From contig NZ_CABDUX010000001.1 of assembly GCF_901411515.1 (NCBI RefSeq), positions 682,001 through 746,000 of the forward strand: a DNA stretch of 64,000 nt. The letters run 5' to 3'. Position 1 is the first letter of the stretch. Each line of letters starts with the position of its first letter. A program made the translations under genes and the position numbers. The stretch is from Raoultibacter phocaeensis. Lineage in GTDB: Bacteria > Actinomycetota > Coriobacteriia > Coriobacteriales > Eggerthellaceae. This document shows positions 30,229 through 58,242 of this stretch, piece by piece. The notes beneath the pieces are model-generated. The model was given only the letters and a program-made list of their open reading frames with translations. It did no database searches and was not told the origin of the DNA.

Positions 30229-30319
30229 GGAGAGCTGACCGAGAGGCCGAAGGTGCTCGCCTGCTAAGCGAGTACACGCCACAAGCGTGTCCGGGGTTCG
30301 AATCCCCGGCTCTCCGCCA
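30229..30319 (+). tRNA. tRNA-Ser (anticodon GCU)
   Basis: The acceptor stem GGAGAGC pairs with GCTCTCC before G and an encoded CCA. The anticodon loop CTGCTAA gives GCU. A long variable arm (TACACGCCACAAGCGTGT) and the T-loop GGTTCGAATCC identify a class II serine tRNA. Confidence 0.95.
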
Positions 30320-30333
30320 CGTTTGCCATTGTA

Positions 30334-30371
30334 CCGTATATGCCGGAAGGCGCCGCGTTCGGCATATACGG
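30334..30371. repeat. Perfect 12-base inverted repeat after tRNA-Ser
   Basis: CCGTATATGCCG (30334-30345) and CGGCATATACGG (30360-30371) flank a 14-base loop. No T-run follows. A second hairpin CCGAACC/GGTTCGG lies at 30457-30479. These could be processing or termination elements for the tRNA. Confidence 0.45.
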
Positions 30372-30577
30372 CGTTACACATCTGCCACATCCCAATCGCC
30401 GCATCATACCCGTGCAACGCGCCGTTCGTACCTACTGGCTGTCTAGCAAATACTCACCGAACCGTTCTTTATGGTTCGGCAACAGATCCTTGCCAACGCA
30501 TCCCCAAGCGAAGTTCAGTCGACGCCGATCGGCTATCATCGGGCGAGAAAACACCGCTCACGACCCGAGGAGCTCGC

Positions 30578-31579
30578 ATGGATATGAAAGCCATCGTCGT
30601 TTCTGAATTCGGCGACGAAACCGTTTTGGTTGAACAAAGCATATCTCTCCCCCATCCCGAACAAGGCGAGGTGCGCATCAAGCTGTTCGCAGCGGGGGTG
30701 AACCCCGTGGAAACCTACATCAGGTCGGGAGACTATCCGGGACTTCCTTCCCTGCCCTACACACCCGGCAACGACGGCGCAGGCGTTGTCGACGCCGTCG
30801 GCGAGGGGGTGGAATCGCTCGAAAAAGGCGAGCGCGTATTCGTCGCTGCCGCTCTTGCGAAGCGGAACACGGGCACCTACGCAGAATACGTCGTATGCGA
30901 CGCGTCGGCCGTACAGGCGCTTCCCGATGCTCTTTCGTTCGAAGCGGGCGCAGGGCTCGGCACCCCGGGTCTTGCGGCAGGTGATGCCCTCTTCGTTCGG
31001 GCAGCCATAAAGCCCGGCGAGATCGTACTCGTCCATGGAGCCAGCGGCGGTGTCGGCATGCTTGCGGTGCAGCTCGCGCGCAGACGCGGCGCGATTGTTT
31101 TCGGCACAGCAGGCGATAGGGAAGGCCTCGCCCTCGTCGCCCGGCTTGGCGCCCACCGCACGTTCAACCATCGAGAGGAAGGCTACATCGACGACATCGT
31201 AGCGGCCACCCACGGCCGCGGAGTCGACGCGATCCTTGAAACCAACGCCCATATCAATCTTATGAAAGACCTTTCGATGACGGGCCATCGGGGTCGTATC
31301 GTCGTAGTCGGAAGCCGCGGCACAATCGAATTCGATCCCCGGGCAACGATGCGCACCGACACCTCCGTGCTCGGCATGGGAGCCGCAAACATGAGTGAAG
31401 CTGAACTCTCTCAGGTCATGCACGCGCTCGGTGCGGCCCTGGAAACCGGTATGGAAGTTGTGGTCGATCGGGCTTTCGCACTCGAAGATGCCAGCAAAGC
31501 CCATGAGGCGGTCACCGAACACGGGAAAAATGGCAAGATCGTGCTTACGATTCGCCATGCTCCCGATACCGCAGATTAG
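30578..31579 (+). CDS. NADPH:quinone reductase / zinc-free alcohol dehydrogenase family
   Basis: A 333-residue medium-chain reductase. The start at 30578 (MDMKAIVVSEFG) follows GAGGAG. The GroES-like half reads RIKLFAAGVNPVETY and PYTPGNDGAGVVDAVG; the nucleotide-binding half has the glycine-rich loop VHGASGGVGMLAVQLA. Zinc-binding cysteines of alcohol dehydrogenases are absent, as in quinone oxidoreductases of the QOR type. It is convergent with the hybrid kinase, the stops overlapping by four bases. Confidence 0.88.
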   Translation: MDMKAIVVSEFGDETVLVEQSISLPHPEQGEVRIKLFAAGVNPVETYIRSGDYPGLPSLPYTPGNDGAGVVDAVGEGVESLEKGERVFVAAALAKRNTGTYAEYVVCDASAVQALPDALSFEAGAGLGTPGLAAGDALFVRAAIKPGEIVLVHGASGGVGMLAVQLARRRGAIVFGTAGDREGLALVARLGAHRTFNHREEGYIDDIVAATHGRGVDAILETNAHINLMKDLSMTGHRGRIVVVGSRGTIEFDPRATMRTDTSVLGMGAANMSEAELSQVMHALGAALETGMEVVVDRAFALEDASKAHEAVTEHGKNGKIVLTIRHAPDTAD

Positions 31580-33855: not shown

Positions 33856-33950
33856 ACGGCGGCACCGCTTTCGTCGATGGTCTTCGCAATCGGCACTACC
33901 GCGCAGCACGACACGCAAACAGCCGAGTAATACCCGGCTGCAAAAACGTT

Positions 33951-34027
33951 TGCAACTGGCTAGCCGCCATTTCTGGTGAGGCCCCTGTAGCTTTGCGTCG
34001 CCGGCTTTCGCCGGGTTTGCCGATTAG
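33951..34027 (-). ncRNA. Cyclic-di-GMP-I (GEMM) riboswitch
   Basis: Read on the minus strand: GCAAACC, then a stem closed by a GAAA tetraloop (CGGC GAAA GCCGG), then CGACGCAAAGCTAC, then a second stem containing GGGGCCT and ending GGCTAGCCAGTTGC. GACGCAAAGC together with the GAAA loop and the ...TAGCC.. GTTGC end is the GEMM-I signature. It lies between the promoter at 34051-34079 and the hybrid kinase start, 96 bases upstream of it. Hairpins after the aptamer (CAGCCG/CGGCTG near 33920-33940) may be the expression platform; no clear T-run was seen, so the on/off sense is unknown. Confidence 0.85.
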
Positions 34028-34050
34028 TCCTATTTTGTTATCGGGTAACT

Positions 34051-34079
34051 AATATATAACGATTAATTTTAATTATCAA
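34051..34079 (-). promoter_or_regulatory. Sigma-70-type promoter for riboswitch and hybrid kinase
   Basis: On the minus strand, TTGATA (34074-34079) and TATATT (34051-34056) are separated by exactly 17 bases in an AT-rich stretch. The start site would be near 34044, just before the riboswitch. Confidence 0.75.
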
Positions 34080-34233: not shown

Positions 34234-34263
34234 AAGGCCCGCTTGCCTAAGCAAACGGGCCTT
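34234..34263 (-). terminator. Rho-independent terminator of molybdoenzyme operon B
   Basis: Arms AAGGCCCGCTTG and CAAACGGGCCTT pair with one mismatch around a 6-base loop. On the minus strand the stem is followed by TTTTAG. It lies about 60 bases after the TorD stop. Confidence 0.8.
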
Positions 34264-34325: not shown

Positions 34326-34925
34326 TTAAGCTGCAACCGCATCTTCGACGAAACACCGCAGACCGCCAGCGACCAAACAGGCCAATGAACGATAGTAGTC
34401 TGTTTGAGCATGAGCTTGCACTTTTTGCATCCATGCATCAACCCAAGGATGCATATAGGTTTCGACAAACTCTCGGGCAGCCACCATCTTGTTTTCTTCG
34501 AGAAGCCGGGATACGAACTCAAGCTCCAAACCGAGATGGTCATCGGGCTCATGGTGCTTCTTCTTCAGTTCGAAGCCATAGTGCTCGTAATACCTTCGGA
34601 CAAACAAAGTGTGCTCGGTAAAAAGAAGATTCTCCTTATCGAGGTACACAGACCCCCAAGGGGGGGCAATCACGTCGTCTATGCCCATCATCATCCGCAG
34701 CCAATCGCTTTTGGCAGCACGGGTCAGTTCGTCCGCAGACGCACGACCAAGCCAGTCGTTCATAAGCTTTTGTCCTTGGATGACACGTTCGTCACAGGCT
34801 GCATACGGCAGTTCCTCGAAAAGTCTCTGGTTTTGCAGCATTCCCATATCCTGAGAGTTTGGTTCGCAGTAGACAAGCTCGCCGAGCAGTCGAAAGAAAA
34901 CCGATGCAGCCTGGGTATCCATCAT
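34326..34925 (-). CDS. TorD/DmsD-family molybdoenzyme chaperone (operon B)
   Basis: A 199-residue helical protein with APPWGSVYLDKENLLF and DDHLGLELEFVSRLL, the two landmark segments of TorD-type chaperones. The start overlaps the ferredoxin subunit stop (ATGA). Its client should be the enzyme at 35568-38462. It is paralogous to the chaperone at 15186-15878 (APPWECVYLTKERVLF). A terminator follows at 34234-34263. Confidence 0.9.
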   Translation of the reverse strand: MMDTQAASVFFRLLGELVYCEPNSQDMGMLQNQRLFEELPYAACDERVIQGQKLMNDWLGRASADELTRAAKSDWLRMMMGIDDVIAPPWGSVYLDKENLLFTEHTLFVRRYYEHYGFELKKKHHEPDDHLGLELEFVSRLLEENKMVAAREFVETYMHPWVDAWMQKVQAHAQTDYYRSLACLVAGGLRCFVEDAVAA

Positions 34926-35554
34926 TCGCTTGCCTTGATCTCTTCGGGCATGTTAAAGTTTATTGTTTCCATGCCGTCTTTATAGCCTCGTCGCGGGGCG
35001 ATAAGCAGGGATGGTTGGCTTTCGGAGGGAGAAGGCAAAGGATCAACCTGCTGTACGGCTTCGGGATGTTTCTGCATAAGCTCGTCAAGTTCGCCGAATT
35101 CCAGAGCCTGCATCGAACAGGCCCGAACGCATGCAGGAGTATCTCCCGAATCGATGAGATCCCTGCACAGGTCGCATTTGCCCATCACGCCCGTTTCGGC
35201 ATTGAACGAAGGTGCATCGTACGGGCAGGCTTCGGAGCAAGCTTTGCAGCCCGTACACAGTTCTTGGTCGATGTAAACAATCCCATTGTCGCGTTTGACG
35301 ATCGCCTGCACAGGACATGCGCCGAGGCAGAGAGGCATTGCGCAATGATTGCATGCGAGCGAGATGGAGTAGGAGAATACATCGATCGGGGTTGCTACTC
35401 CGACGTCGTCAACGCTCCAGCTGCCGGCGCTCTGAGAATACACCTTGCGAAACTTGCGACCAGGCGCCAGATCGTTTTTGTCTTTGCATGCCAAGCCGCA
35501 AGCTTTGCAGGTGATGCATGTGTCCGAATCGACAAAAAAAGCCAACTGACTCAT
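34922..35554 (-). CDS. Four-cluster ferredoxin subunit, DmsB-like (operon B)
   Basis: A 210-residue protein with four cysteine motifs for [4Fe-4S] clusters: CITCKACGLAC, CNHCxxPLCLGACP, CTGCKACSEACP and CDLCxxxxxxxxxPACVRAC. It has no signal peptide, so export with the Tat subunit is expected. It is adjacent to the catalytic subunit gene (13 bases) and overlaps the chaperone gene. As in operon A, no membrane anchor gene is present. Confidence 0.93.
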   Translation of the reverse strand: MSQLAFFVDSDTCITCKACGLACKDKNDLAPGRKFRKVYSQSAGSWSVDDVGVATPIDVFSYSISLACNHCAMPLCLGACPVQAIVKRDNGIVYIDQELCTGCKACSEACPYDAPSFNAETGVMGKCDLCRDLIDSGDTPACVRACSMQALEFGELDELMQKHPEAVQQVDPLPSPSESQPSLLIAPRRGYKDGMETINFNMPEEIKASE

Positions 35555-35567
35555 GATTGCCTCCTTC

Positions 35568-38462
35568 CTATTCGAAATCTACGACGTCGAGCTGCCACTG
35601 GTAGTTTGGCTTCAAGGGTTCGCCGGTCCACTTCTCAACGTTCACGATGATGCTGTTGTAGGCCTGATGACCCTGCCCCACGAGATACGTAGGAGCAAGT
35701 ACGTTTGAAGCTCCTCCGTAGTCGATGACTTCATCCCAATCGGTGTCGTCCTTCGTCTTCTCGTCGTCGAGCAGACGTGCCGTCGCGCCCTCGATACCGA
35801 CGATAACTCCAGGCATAACCGTCGTTGTAACCGTCACGCGACGAAGATGCCTTCCGGCCTCGCTCGTAAGCAATGCCGTATCGTCGTTTTCCAGTCCGAT
35901 CGCCTCGGCATCGAGCGGATTGACGAACAACACGTCATCGAAGAATTCGAGTACTTCGGGGCAATCGAGCCTCGATGAATGCACTCGATGATGCGGATGC
36001 ACGTTTATGTATTGATATGGGTATTCTCCTCGCGTTGATTCTTCATAGCTGCCTTGGCCCGAGGCTGCATAGGTAGGCGTAGCCTTGACGGCATGGTCGA
36101 AGCCGAAAACCTGATAGTAGTTTTCCAAGTTCATGCTGTATATCTCCAAGTAGCCCGTTTGGGTGGAAAGTTTGTTTTCGGGCTTGGTGGGATCTTCCAT
36201 CAGCTTGGTGAATTGGCTGACGTATCGTTTGAGACCGTCATTCATCTCTATCTTGTAAAAACCCTGCTCCTTGAATTCTTGGTACGTGATACGACCGTCG
36301 GCGAGCACCGCAGCATCAACACCTTCTATGCCGATTTCATCAAGGTCTTCCTGGGTAAAACTGATAAGCGGATCATGGCTTTGGCCGTCGGAACCGATCA
36401 CCCATGCGTTCGCGATTCCTGTAAAATTGTTCTCTTTGTAAGACAGGCCATTCGGATAAGCACCCACAGGATCGACCTCGAACAGCTCGCACAGCGCAGC
36501 ATCGACATCAAAGGAGGCTTTGCTTTCGAACAGAGGCTCGACGATGCGCTTTGCGTTTCCCAAGAACATCTCTGGATTGAGCATGTTATAGTTGCCATCT
36601 ACTTCCCACCAGCTCGTACAGGGAAGCACGATGTCGGCATAGCGCGTAGTGGTGTTCATGAACATATCCATAGCCAAGACGAACTCGACAGCGCGATGCG
36701 CCTGAATCGCCTTGAATGTGTTGACATTCTGGTTGCTTGAGTTTCCGTTGAAAAGCTTCACGATCGCCTTGATGTTCTGATCTTTCATGCCGTGCACGAA
36801 GTTATGTGACTTCCCTTCGAGAATAGCATCCCATGCTTCGGCAAACGCGATGCCGTAATAGCGCTCTTCTTCGTAGTTGCTCTGAATGTCCCATGGATAA
36901 CCGATCGCACCGTAGGATACATCTGCCTTAGGATTGGGAGGCTGCATCATAAACCCTTCGGGCGCAAGGTTGACGCGCGCTTCTTCACCGGCCGAGATTC
37001 CGAAATAGAAATTCGAACCAGGATAGAAACCCCCGATGAAACCGCTGTATCCACCACCGGCAAAACCGCCGCCATTCGTGACGATTGCCCCTGGTTTTCC
37101 GTAATTGCCCGTCATCCATCCCATCGCGAAGAAACATTGCGCAACGTTTGCTCCGTAGTAGTGCCTGCCCATAGCCTGCTGAGCAATCAGGCTCATAGGC
37201 TTGATGGTTCCCATGTCGGTTGCCAGAGACTTGATCCGGTCAACTGGCGTGCCGCATATCTGCGACGCCCACTCCGCCGATTTGGGAGTCCCGTCATAGG
37301 TGCCCAGCACGTAATCCTTGAAATTGTCCTTTGCAAACTTATGGCGCTCTTGGCCGTCGACAACCTCGATGACCGATTCCTCATCCCATATAACCTTGCC
37401 CTCGGCATCGTATTCTCCACGACGGAGGGTGCGCTTCATTATGGGATTGCCTTCCTTGTCGTAAAGCCCTTTGCTGTGCATGCTCTCTTCGTCGTAGCCG
37501 ACCACGTACTTGTCTAAGAACTCCTGATCCACAAGATCCTGCATGATAAGCTCATGGCAGACGGCAAGCATCAAGGCCGCATCGGTTCCCGGGCGGCAGG
37601 GAATCCACTCATCGGCGTACGCATTGTTTCCTGGATTGAACCACGGATCGATTGCGATGATTTTTGCCCCACGCTCTTTAGCGTACCGAAACGCCATAGG
37701 AGCCGCACCGTACTGCGACCAGCCGTGATTGCAACCCCAAAGCACAATGAGCTGCGAATCTTTCATGGTGGTATACCGATCGGTCGCGATAACTCCGTCT
37801 CCGACCATCTTGTTGGTGGGCACCGGCCAACCGCCGGTGGAATTCTGACCCCAAATCGGATTGACGCCGATGCCCGCCTGGTTGAGGCAGCGCATTTCGA
37901 CACCCACCGAATAGCAGAGATCGAGAATAGGCAAGCCGTTTCCGTAATCGTCCGACCCAGTGCCGTATTCCTCGGCGATCCGCTTAAGCTCGTTAGCGGC
38001 GGTTTGCAGCGCCTCGTCCCAAGAGATGCGCTCCCATTCATCCTTGCCGCGAAGATGTCCGTTCACGCCATCGCCACCACCGGGGCTCCAACTTTTTCGT
38101 TTCATGGGGAATTTAATTCGTGCCGGACTCAAGAAAGCCCAGCGCCCAGCACGCGCCTTGATGCAGGAACGCCATTGGGGCTGTTCAGGCGAATTGGGTC
38201 CCACTTCGTCGGTCATTCCCCGAATAGGAATACCGTCCACTACGTATACCCTGTTGACACATTGGAATTCCGCACATCCCGGACAGGTTACGGTAACCCA
38301 TTCGCCCCCCGACAAGCTGCTGACATCAGGCGGTGTTTCGGGCTCCTCCCCACCCGAAGGTGCACATGCGGTGAGTCCGCCTGCCACACCTGCAGCAGCC
38401 GCCGTCGCAGTGACCCATTTGACAAAAGAACGTCGTGAGATCATGCTGCTTTCGTTATTCAT
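35568..38462 (-). CDS. Tat-exported DMSO-reductase-family molybdopterin oxidoreductase (operon B)
   Basis: A 964-residue catalytic subunit. The start at 38462 (MNNESSMISRRSFVK) follows GAGGAGAG. The Tat motif SRRSFVK (9-15) is followed by LTAC (C33), a lipobox-like site. [4Fe-4S] cysteines are C60, C63, C68 and C100. Cofactor-binding regions are recognisable (IVLWGCNHGWSQ, IIAIDPWFNPGN, CRPGTDAALMLA, and a C-terminal domain ending GQGHQAYNSI). The spacing C-x2-C-x4-C-x31-C differs from operon A, so the two enzymes are not close copies. Relatives in gut Eggerthellaceae include catechol dehydroxylases, but the substrate here is not inferable. Confidence 0.92.
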   Translation of the reverse strand: MNNESSMISRRSFVKWVTATAAAAGVAGGLTACAPSGGEEPETPPDVSSLSGGEWVTVTCPGCAEFQCVNRVYVVDGIPIRGMTDEVGPNSPEQPQWRSCIKARAGRWAFLSPARIKFPMKRKSWSPGGGDGVNGHLRGKDEWERISWDEALQTAANELKRIAEEYGTGSDDYGNGLPILDLCYSVGVEMRCLNQAGIGVNPIWGQNSTGGWPVPTNKMVGDGVIATDRYTTMKDSQLIVLWGCNHGWSQYGAAPMAFRYAKERGAKIIAIDPWFNPGNNAYADEWIPCRPGTDAALMLAVCHELIMQDLVDQEFLDKYVVGYDEESMHSKGLYDKEGNPIMKRTLRRGEYDAEGKVIWDEESVIEVVDGQERHKFAKDNFKDYVLGTYDGTPKSAEWASQICGTPVDRIKSLATDMGTIKPMSLIAQQAMGRHYYGANVAQCFFAMGWMTGNYGKPGAIVTNGGGFAGGGYSGFIGGFYPGSNFYFGISAGEEARVNLAPEGFMMQPPNPKADVSYGAIGYPWDIQSNYEEERYYGIAFAEAWDAILEGKSHNFVHGMKDQNIKAIVKLFNGNSSNQNVNTFKAIQAHRAVEFVLAMDMFMNTTTRYADIVLPCTSWWEVDGNYNMLNPEMFLGNAKRIVEPLFESKASFDVDAALCELFEVDPVGAYPNGLSYKENNFTGIANAWVIGSDGQSHDPLISFTQEDLDEIGIEGVDAAVLADGRITYQEFKEQGFYKIEMNDGLKRYVSQFTKLMEDPTKPENKLSTQTGYLEIYSMNLENYYQVFGFDHAVKATPTYAASGQGSYEESTRGEYPYQYINVHPHHRVHSSRLDCPEVLEFFDDVLFVNPLDAEAIGLENDDTALLTSEAGRHLRRVTVTTTVMPGVIVGIEGATARLLDDEKTKDDTDWDEVIDYGGASNVLAPTYLVGQGHQAYNSIIVNVEKWTGEPLKPNYQWQLDVVDFE

Positions 38463-38581
38463 CTCTCCTCCTCTTTTTGGATTTACCCAAAAAGATTTAT
38501 GGCAGATAATAATGACCGGTTCAATTTCCAAAAAAGGACACGGTGTAACCTGTTCTTTACGAACCGAGGGGGAATGAACCA

Positions 38582-38616
38582 ATCCCGAAACGGAAAGACG
38601 CTCGTCGTTTCGGGAT
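38582..38616. promoter_or_regulatory. Perfect 11-base inverted repeat between operon B and its TetR regulator
   Basis: ATCCCGAAACG (38582-38592) and CGTTTCGGGAT (38606-38616) are exact reverse complements with a 13-base spacer. It lies in the divergent intergenic region of 228 bases, so it is a candidate operator for the TetR protein. Confidence 0.5.
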
Positions 38617-38690
38617 CGAAACGATTGCGGCACGTATGTCGACTCGTTTCGTATGCGCTTCTGGGGGCAGCGTGCTATACGGGAGGAACA

Positions 38691-39260
38691 ATGGAAGACA
38701 GCAAAGATGCGCTGAAGCAAGCATTGAAGGAACTGACGAAAAGCAAACCTTACAAAAAGATTACCGTATCCGATATCTGCACTAGAGCGAAGGTCTCAAG
38801 GAGAACGTTTTACAAGCATTTTGAAAATATCGATGAAATGGTCGATCAGATAATCGACGATGACATAATAGTTCCGTCGTGCAGCGTACGAGAACTCTTA
38901 CCCGTCGATGAAACCGAATCCCTCAGGCCGATCATGATGGAAATGACGACGAAAACGCTTCACGAAAATCGAGAATTCTACCGTGCGGTAATGCATTACA
39001 AAGGACACTACTCTCTCTTGAAAACCTTTTTGGATCACGTGAGACCCTTCAATGAAAAGGTTTACGAAGGCTATCTTGGCGACACCGAAGAAAACGACTT
39101 CGTTTCGTATCTCTACGCATGGTACCCCTTCATAATGTTGTTATGGTGGACGGAATACGAAGGCACAACCGATCCGAAAACGATGACCCAGTACATCAAT
39201 CGCTGGGCTTTCGCATCTTGGGATGTTTTAAAAAACCAGCTCGACGAACAGAACGGTTAA
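38691..39260 (+). CDS. TetR-family transcriptional regulator
   Basis: A 189-residue protein starting MEDSKDALKQALKELT at 38691 behind GGGAGGA. The helix-turn-helix reads ITVSDICTRAKVSRRTFYKHFENIDEM, and the C-terminal region contains LYAWYPFIMLLWWTEYEG, as in TetR proteins of the DhaS-like C-terminal group. Upstream in-frame ATGs are not supported by a ribosome binding site. It is divergent from molybdoenzyme operon B, so it is the probable local regulator. Confidence 0.92.
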   Translation: MEDSKDALKQALKELTKSKPYKKITVSDICTRAKVSRRTFYKHFENIDEMVDQIIDDDIIVPSCSVRELLPVDETESLRPIMMEMTTKTLHENREFYRAVMHYKGHYSLLKTFLDHVRPFNEKVYEGYLGDTEENDFVSYLYAWYPFIMLLWWTEYEGTTDPKTMTQYINRWAFASWDVLKNQLDEQNG

Positions 39261-39444: not shown

Positions 39445-39999
39445 TTAGAACTGCACCTGCGGTGCGGTTTCGGCGCCGGCAACCGCATCGAAGCTGTCGC
39501 GTGCCTGAAATCCCATCATGCCCGCGAAGATGACCGCCGGGAACGTTTGGATGGCCGTGTTGTACTTCATAACGGTATCGTTGTAGCTCTGACGCATATA
39601 CGAAATCTTGTCCTCGGTGTTCGAAAGCTCGCTTTGCAGCTGTTGGAAATTGACGTTGGCCTTGAGGTCAGGGTAAGCCTCGGCGACGGCGAACAGGCTC
39701 TTGAGCGCTCCCGTGAGCATGTTGTCGGCCTGCATCTTGCCTTCGCGGCTCGTGGCGCCCATAACAGCGCTGCGTGCTTGGGTAACCTGATCGAGCGTAC
39801 CCTGCTCGTGCGTTGCATATCCCTTGACCGTTTCCACCAGATTCGGGATGAGGTCGAGACGGCGCTGCAGCTGCACGTCGATCTGCGCCCAAGCGTTATC
39901 GACCATATTGCGCATCTTCACCAGGTTGTTGTACAGGGCGATGGCCGCAATCACGAGGATAACGATGATCGCCACGATGACAATCAATACGATTTCCAT
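39445..39999 (-). CDS. lemA: LemA family protein
   Basis: A 184-residue protein with one N-terminal membrane helix (IVLIVIVAIIVILVIAAIALYN) and a helical domain containing RNMVDNAWAQIDVQLQRR and the strongly conserved RLDLIPNLVETVKGY. The C-terminal part ends in FPAVIFAGMMGFQARDSFDA. The molecular function is not established. LemA is often encoded with DUF2207 proteins, but here the DUF2207 gene is about 10 kb away. Confidence 0.93.
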   Translation of the reverse strand: MEIVLIVIVAIIVILVIAAIALYNNLVKMRNMVDNAWAQIDVQLQRRLDLIPNLVETVKGYATHEQGTLDQVTQARSAVMGATSREGKMQADNMLTGALKSLFAVAEAYPDLKANVNFQQLQSELSNTEDKISYMRQSYNDTVMKYNTAIQTFPAVIFAGMMGFQARDSFDAVAGAETAPQVQF

Positions 40000-56056: not shown

Positions 56057-56716
56057 ATGCTCGAGCAATCAAACGACGGCGCGCGTACACCTAAGACAGC
56101 TGCTGCCGACAGCGTTTTTCAAAACGGGTCGCGAAGCGCTCAGGAACTTGCGTGCATAACCGAAGACTCGCTGCTTGAAGAATACAACATGCTCATGAGC
56201 GCCCTGCACGTATCGGTAAGCAAGCATCTGTTCACCGAGCGTTTCGAAGTCGTATGGGCGAACGATTTCTATTACGCGATGACGGGATACACGCGAGAAG
56301 AGTACGAGCGCCTCTTCGAAAACTGCTGCGGGATGTACTTTCAGAACGATCCCGAAGAATACGCAAAGCTTTCTGCCAAAGTCATGAAAGCGTTTGAAGC
56401 GGGCGAGCCTGGATACGAATGCCTCTTGCATATGCGCCAAAAGGGCGATTCGTTTACCTGGATCCATGTGGTCGGCAAGTTCACGAATGAGCTGATCGAC
56501 GGCATGCCCGTCATTTACTCCACCTTTACCAACGTCGACGATGTCGTGCAGATAGAACGAGAGCGCTCCATCGCATACGACAACATACCGGGCTTCATCG
56601 CCCGCTACCGCGTCGGCGAACACGGTCTTTCGCTTTTGTACGGCAACGATCGGTTCGCCGAGTTTTCGGCCCCATCGGTACGCCCGAGATGCAACGACTG
56701 CTGCAAAGCAACGTGA
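56057..56716 (+). CDS. Cyclic-di-GMP phosphodiesterase, 5' fragment (PAS domains)
   Basis: The first 219 residues of a sensor protein split by a frameshift. A PAS domain (VVWANDFYYAMTGYTREEYERL to FTWIHVVGKF) is followed by a second PAS-like segment (IPGFIARYRVGEHGLSLLYGNDRFAEF). The frame then goes astray after RFAEF and stops at 56716. Adding one T to the TTTT run at 56663-56666 gives FFGPIGTPEMQRLL and continues into the second fragment. Confidence 0.8.
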   Translation: MLEQSNDGARTPKTAAADSVFQNGSRSAQELACITEDSLLEEYNMLMSALHVSVSKHLFTERFEVVWANDFYYAMTGYTREEYERLFENCCGMYFQNDPEEYAKLSAKVMKAFEAGEPGYECLLHMRQKGDSFTWIHVVGKFTNELIDGMPVIYSTFTNVDDVVQIERERSIAYDNIPGFIARYRVGEHGLSLLYGNDRFAEFSAPSVRPRCNDCCKAT

Positions 56717-58242
56717 TGCTCAACGATGAAGTCATTTCAGAGCACTACCCCGCTATGCGCGAGGGAGCCTCGCTTTCGTTCGAGGCCGAAGCGATCAGCA
56801 TCCGCGGCGAGCACGCCTTCTTCCGCATATTCGCTGACTGCGTTTCCTATATCGAAGGCGATCCTGTGTACCTTGTACTCTATCTCGACACAACCGAAGC
56901 CATCGAACAGCGCAATCGCGCCGAAAAGACTGCGCTCGAACTGCGCGACCTCGCGTTCGTCGATCCTGTCACCGGCGGGCGCAACCGCACGAGCTTCGAG
57001 GCAGATGCCGGGGCCGCCATACAGGCAGCTCCCCCGAATTCCTATGCGCTTGTGGCCATCGATATCGACAAATTCAAGGTAGTAAACGATCAGTTCGGCC
57101 TCGCCCAAGGCGATGCGGTGCTGAAAACACTCTACGAGCAGCTCTCCGGATGCATCGGCGAAGGCGAGTTCGCCGGGCGTATCTCTGCCGACGTATTTAA
57201 CCTCCTGATCAGAGCCGAGTCCAATGACCGTCTCGAGGCGCGCATCGAGAGCATGGTCGCCGATGCGAACCGGCATATGGTGATCGACACCGCTCACGCC
57301 TACCTGCTTACCGTAACCGCCGGAGTCTATCTGATCGACGAACCGGATCTGCCCATGATGCAGATACAGGATCGCGCGAACGTCGCGCGCAAGAAGGCAG
57401 GCGACAAGCGCGTCAACAAACTCTGCCTGTTCCACTACTACAGCAACGACGATCGCATCAAGCTTGCGAAGGACAAGGACATCGAGAGCAGGATGCATAC
57501 AGCGCTCGCAAACAGGGAGTTCGTGGCCTACCTGCAACCGAAGCTCGATTTGCAGACCAACACCGTTGCCGGAGCCGAAGCGCTTGTGCGCTGGAACGAT
57601 CCCGAAAACGGCCTTATTCCCCCGAACGATTTCATCCCGCTGTTTGAGCGCAACGGCTTCATTGTCGAACTCGACCTCTACATGTTCGAGCAGACGTGCT
57701 CGCTGCTCAAGTCATGGCACGATGACGGAAAACGCGCCATCCCGATTTCAGTGAACCTCTCGCGCATGCACCTGAGGGATCCCCACTTCCTCGATAGCTT
57801 CGAAGCCATACGGCAGCGATACGCCGTACCTGCTTCGCTCATCGAATTCGAGCTGACCGAAACGCTCGTGTTCGAGAATCCCCAGATGCTCTCGGGGGTC
57901 ATCGACGACATCCACGCGGCGGGCTATACCTGTTCGATGGATGATTTCGGCAGCGGGTACTCCTCGCTCAACGTGCTGAAGAACCTCACCGTCGACACGC
58001 TCAAGCTCGACCGCGTCTTCTTCGACGAGCCGAATATGGAAGACAGCCGCGGTGCAGACATCGTAGGCATAGCAATCGAACTCGCAAAGCGGCTCGGGAT
58101 GAAAACCGTCGCCGAAGGCGTCGAAACCGAACGGCAGCGCGCGTTTCTCGCCGAAGCAGGATGCGACATGATCCAGGGCTATCTGTACTCGCGGCCCGCC
58201 CCCCTCGAGGAGTTCGAAAAACTCGCGTTCGGCACCGCGTAA
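56689..58242 (+). CDS. Cyclic-di-GMP phosphodiesterase, 3' fragment (degenerate GGDEF + EAL)
   Basis: A 517-residue fragment read from the ATG at 56689. The GGDEF region (FVDPVTGGRNRTSFEAD, DIDKFKVVNDQFG) has ISADVF where GGDEF should be, so no cyclase activity is expected. The EAL domain is complete: EALVRW, VNLSR, ELTET, DDFGSGYSSL, LKLDR, AEGVET and QGYLYSRP. In the assembled full-length protein it sits after two PAS domains. It hydrolyses cyclic di-GMP if made. Confidence 0.9.
   Translation: MQRLLQSNVMLNDEVISEHYPAMREGASLSFEAEAISIRGEHAFFRIFADCVSYIEGDPVYLVLYLDTTEAIEQRNRAEKTALELRDLAFVDPVTGGRNRTSFEADAGAAIQAAPPNSYALVAIDIDKFKVVNDQFGLAQGDAVLKTLYEQLSGCIGEGEFAGRISADVFNLLIRAESNDRLEARIESMVADANRHMVIDTAHAYLLTVTAGVYLIDEPDLPMMQIQDRANVARKKAGDKRVNKLCLFHYYSNDDRIKLAKDKDIESRMHTALANREFVAYLQPKLDLQTNTVAGAEALVRWNDPENGLIPPNDFIPLFERNGFIVELDLYMFEQTCSLLKSWHDDGKRAIPISVNLSRMHLRDPHFLDSFEAIRQRYAVPASLIEFELTETLVFENPQMLSGVIDDIHAAGYTCSMDDFGSGYSSLNVLKNLTVDTLKLDRVFFDEPNMEDSRGADIVGIAIELAKRLGMKTVAEGVETERQRAFLAEAGCDMIQGYLYSRPAPLEEFEKLAFGTA

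Follow-up and report, generated by a model that had tools for sequence, protein, structure and literature searches.

Riboswitch leader and kinase gene at the locus

The 64,000-nucleotide stretch of DNA analysed here (the window) carries a hybrid histidine kinase gene with a c-di-GMP-I (GEMM-I) riboswitch in its 5′ leader, on the same strand (Table 1). An earlier note, made from the sequence alone, had claimed such an aptamer and named a covariance search with RF01051 as its check. A cmscan run over the whole window found one c-di-GMP-I riboswitch, a significant minus-strand match spanning model positions 1-87 (54.9 bits against a gathering score of 35; E-value of 5.4e-8, calculated for the window). 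The span originally proposed (33951-34079) covers most of the aptamer, but falls 3 nt short of the full model match and takes in the promoter. A covariance model built from class relatives scores the window aptamer at 77.3 bits, the window sequence being one of its 24 members.

Table 1. Features of the riboswitch-kinase locus and of the adjoining DNA, in window coordinates
Feature	Position	Strand	Remarks
Hybrid histidine kinase, 759 aa	31576..33855	-	HisKA, HATPase_c, two receivers, no output domain
10-bp hairpin GCAGCCGGGU-AUU-ACUCGGCUGU, possible weak terminator	33919..33941	-	-16.4 kcal/mol in 48-nt fold, z -2.2
c-di-GMP-I (GEMM-I) aptamer	33948..34031	-	RF01051, 54.9 bits; contact-residue equivalents kept
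Sigma-70-like promoter TTGATA-17-TATATT	34051..34079	-	10/12 matches
Terminator-like site after upstream TorD-like gene	34237..34256	-	Parts riboswitch unit from upstream operon
Block between LemA and kinase	34326..39260		Absent at same place in relatives, including G333
TorD-like chaperone	34326-34925	-	In LemA-kinase block
Fe-S protein	34922-35554	-	In LemA-kinase block
Molybdopterin oxidoreductase	35568-38720	-	In LemA-kinase block
Regulator, divergent	38499-39260	+	In LemA-kinase block
LemA-like gene (named by eye)	39445..39999	-	Adjoins kinase upstream in relatives; 85-95% identity

The ligand contacts of c-di-GMP-I aptamers are G20, A47 and C92 (PMC9049102, PMC4744006), and their equivalents in the window (G11, A38 and C80 of the aptamer) are all intact; this numbering was transferred via pairing logic (the G21-C46 pair) and alignment position rather than from a structure. 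Across the 24 aligned class aptamers, the A47 and C92 equivalents are invariant and that of G20 is nearly so (G is lacking there in seven of 85 class aptamers). Judged by score, core residues and position, the element is a genuine RF01051 member, and c-di-GMP binding is predicted from this membership. It shares with RF01051 at large the full-length match, the conserved core, the contact residues and the 5′-leader place behind a promoter-like site. It differs in its target, a hybrid histidine kinase instead of the surface proteins, pilins and c-di-GMP enzymes found at most loci here, and in an expression platform that is not recognisable.

The promoter described earlier was located ahead of the aptamer; it ranks first among three promoter-like sites within 4 kb (1.5 expected by chance, from shuffles), and transcription is expected to start at about 34046-34041 (-). 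The spacing is 20 nt from this site to the aptamer and 93 nt from the aptamer to the kinase start. The kinase is the sole downstream gene, the next one (30287-31579, +) being convergent. Aptamer, promoter-like site and kinase are thereby established at the level of sequence.

Pfam and the open reading frame agree with the earlier description of the kinase, including its length, its two receivers, the lack of an output domain and its place as the only downstream gene; apart from HisKA, HATPase_c and two Response_reg matches, no further Pfam domain was found. The translation contains the phosphoacceptor motifs (SHDIRTPLN, and the acidic pair, aspartate and lysine in both receivers), so that all the features of a hybrid histidine kinase (HisKA, HATPase_c, receivers and phosphoacceptor residues) are present. 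The N-terminal part shows two probable membrane helices on either side of an extracytoplasmic sensor (judged by eye). The frame comprises 759 aa if it starts at ATG 33855, or 780 aa if at TTG 33918; inspection of the leader revealed no clear Shine-Dalgarno sequence ahead of the start codon, which is therefore uncertain.

The kinase also matches PDB chain 6qrj (E-value of 2.3e-52), which we take, from its residue numbering, to be ShkA of Caulobacter crescentus. ShkA is a HisKA-HATPase-REC-REC hybrid kinase tied to c-di-GMP, as is the window kinase, and it binds the messenger directly via a pseudo-receiver, with REC1 Y338 and the DDR linker as key residues (PMC7010744). The window kinase, in contrast, carries F in place of Y338, lacks DDR in its linker and has a complete first receiver; direct c-di-GMP binding in the manner of ShkA was therefore rejected.

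The ligand is probably both made and degraded in the host, since the genome contains 33 GGDEF and about 19 EAL matches. Among these, a GGDEF-EAL protein within the window (about 56689-58242, +) accords with the earlier claim of a c-di-GMP phosphodiesterase there. One HPt match lies over the cut-off in the genome, making a phosphorelay partner possible (a candidate only). The genome holds two GEMM-I aptamers, the other of which (L033, G000:C1:1311524-1311606) precedes a 2671-residue secreted-looking frame. At the position equivalent to G20, this aptamer has U and its ortholog in G333 (L110, G333:C1:2549971-2550054) has A, which could change ligand preference.

Leader folding and possible direction of switching

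The hairpin between aptamer and kinase lies outside the aptamer without overlapping it, and the U-tract after it is poor (UUGCGUGU). In computed ensembles its probability is equal with or without a formed aptamer; given this and the U-tract, the leader shows no clear switch. In about seven or eight relatives from the order, the 3′ strand of the aptamer serves as the 5′ arm of a terminator, so the ligand-bound aptamer would prevent termination (an ON layout). The window leader is unlike these relatives, as its hairpin makes no use of that strand. Hairpins in the window leader and in some relatives were judged by eye as well as by the automatic terminator scan. A long-range pairing between AAUCGGCA (aptamer) and UGCCGAUU (leader) appeared switch-like in the minimum-energy fold, yet a match of at least 8 bp occurs in ~19% of shuffled leaders; this pairing was dropped, the 8-bp complement being no better than chance.

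Clostridioides difficile already offers a published case of a c-di-GMP riboswitch governing two-component genes: its Cdi-2-2 drives the cmrRST operon and raises its expression (PMC6837544, PMC6200980). As in the window, a two-component signalling gene stands behind the riboswitch, and the conserved target lacks the riboswitch in some genomes. In contrast to the window, the aptamer is of class II (structurally unrelated to class I), the operon encodes two DNA-binding response regulators together with the kinase, and expression is also phase-variable. For a class I aptamer ahead of a hybrid kinase, no description was found in the open-licence papers searched.

The layout in the order relatives and the cmrRST precedent weakly favour ON at high c-di-GMP as the likeliest direction. 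The opposite direction, in which the bound aptamer favours the downstream hairpin and ends transcription so that c-di-GMP lowers the kinase, is less probable but a serious contender. It draws on the hairpin's independence of the aptamer 3′ strand, and is kept alive by the class I switches of C. difficile, which, where a gene has been measured, lower expression with one exception (PMC6200980). It further draws on the complementarity of the aptamer segment ACCCGGC to the hairpin arm GCCGGGU, a possible antiterminator; this pairing was rejected, however, having a probability of 0 in computed ensembles, and the poor U-tract likewise speaks against termination at the hairpin.

Origin and frequency of the riboswitch-kinase pairing

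Of 138 family genomes, 38 have orthologs of the kinase, with orthology assessed on the sensor region. The class-aptamer model detected no riboswitch beside these orthologs at the fetched family loci except in this genome, nor beside 80 kinase homologs from other, mostly clostridial, genomes; inheritance of the riboswitch together with the kinase was accordingly rejected. Four relatives, G333 of the same genus and G074, G154 and G090 of another, have LemA as the immediate upstream neighbour of the kinase. DUF2207 lies beyond LemA in all of them but G154, whose contig stops before that point. Here, a block of ~5.3 kb (its genes named from reading translations, not by family search) parts LemA from the kinase, with the promoter and riboswitch at its kinase end. 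The single aptamer of G333 is the ortholog of the other riboswitch of this genome.

Since relatives keep LemA and the kinase together without a riboswitch and a block intervenes here, the pairing looks lineage-specific on gene order. It appears to have arisen once, and recently, when a DNA block landed beside a conserved kinase. Insertion in this lineage is the simplest reading of how the kinase came under the riboswitch; loss of the riboswitch in other lineages is possible instead, but needs more events.

Within the host class, which is probably Coriobacteriia (the family being Eggerthellaceae-like), 73 of 298 genomes have GEMM-I aptamers above the cut-off, as do 152 of 396 sampled genomes of the phylum, making the riboswitch class ordinary in the phylum. 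A histidine kinase lies 3′ of the aptamer at two of 85 class loci, the window and one in G338 (some loci end at contig ends). Among about 90 further phylum loci, some of them incomplete, no kinase came up as the first gene. The kinases were searched for with a profile of the window kinase and its orthologs, which could miss very distant ones. The genome (3.86 Mb) has 31 HisKA matches, and two kinases in 85 loci are not a clear excess, being close to the number expected from the proportion of kinase genes. The view that the pairing is unusual for Actinobacteria consequently stands as regards the rarity of kinase targets, but not as regards the riboswitch, which is common, or this kind of control, for which cmrRST was already published.

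Other GEMM-I targets in the order include diguanylate cyclases and one GGDEF-EAL protein, and many resemble secreted proteins or pilins. In G054, G074 and G202, GEMM-I aptamers (L035, L036 and L042) precede signal-peptidase-like genes (motif VLSGSMEPAIQTGDLI) whose products gave no Pfam match at 0.001. At one of the further phylum loci, L262 (206-2458) from another class, the genes behind the aptamer encode a pair of receiver proteins and a GGDEF-EAL protein.

The G338 locus (L154, 3377-8999), from the same host family, likewise places a GEMM-I aptamer (66.5 bits) directly ahead of a hybrid histidine kinase. It differs from the window in a strong terminator, an unrelated sensor, a single receiver (648-residue frame with HisKA and HATPase_c) and a diguanylate cyclase that follows. 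A divergent gene there has a product resembling a GGDEF-histidine kinase fusion. With a completeness of 84% and about 180 contigs, this genome could carry an assembly error at the locus. The closest family sensors are only 21-36% identical to that of the G338 kinase, so conservation of this pairing in the family was rejected and it, too, is a single case.

These observations bear on a further alternative, namely that a true aptamer affects the kinase barely or not at all, the leader having been brought in by rearrangement and its platform lost or decaying. The lineage-specific junction, the other orthologs without an upstream riboswitch, the weak terminator and the near-background frequency of kinase targets all fit such a relic. 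The promoter-like site, spacing, aptamer stems and ligand contacts are nevertheless intact and, barring a very recent event, would have decayed in the absence of selection; we consider this explanation rather unlikely.

Proposed control of kinase dose by c-di-GMP

On balance, the locus is probably a genuine c-di-GMP-I leader of a single-gene kinase mRNA through which c-di-GMP sets the kinase dose, and which arose by insertion of a block in this lineage. The riboswitch would form the 5′ leader of the transcript of a conserved membrane hybrid histidine kinase, and c-di-GMP binding to it would alter the amount of full-length kinase mRNA (or protein). The second messenger may thereby set the dose of a two-component sensor, under a control whose existence and direction we infer; the block ending in the riboswitch would have come between LemA and the kinase. 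This explanation is supported by the aptamer, the promoter- and terminator-like sites, the kinase domains, the GGDEF/EAL set, the G338 case, the ON-type relatives, the synteny break and cmrRST. It is weakened by the aptamer-independent hairpin, the lack of a clear Shine-Dalgarno sequence, the orthologs without a riboswitch and the background-level kinase share.

G at position 20 is the c-di-GMP state of GEMM-I aptamers. Sensing of another cyclic dinucleotide (cGAMP, as in the Geobacter GEMM-I group) is known for some members (PMC8835794) and would suit the U and A of the genome's other aptamer and its G333 ortholog, but is highly improbable for the window aptamer, which retains G20 along with the A47 and C92 equivalents.

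Should the leader work as a c-di-GMP switch of kinase dose, no earlier class I c-di-GMP riboswitch acting on a histidine kinase would be on record in the open-licence papers searched, and the case would stand beside the class II example of C. difficile. A broader and distinctly speculative idea is that c-di-GMP riboswitches have repeatedly been joined to unrelated hybrid histidine kinases of the host family via ready-made leaders, the messenger then setting which sensor kinases are present and providing a gene-dose link to the phosphorelay. A single genus thus has this conserved kinase both behind a riboswitch and free of one, a natural comparison that would test the effect of riboswitch capture on a signalling pathway.
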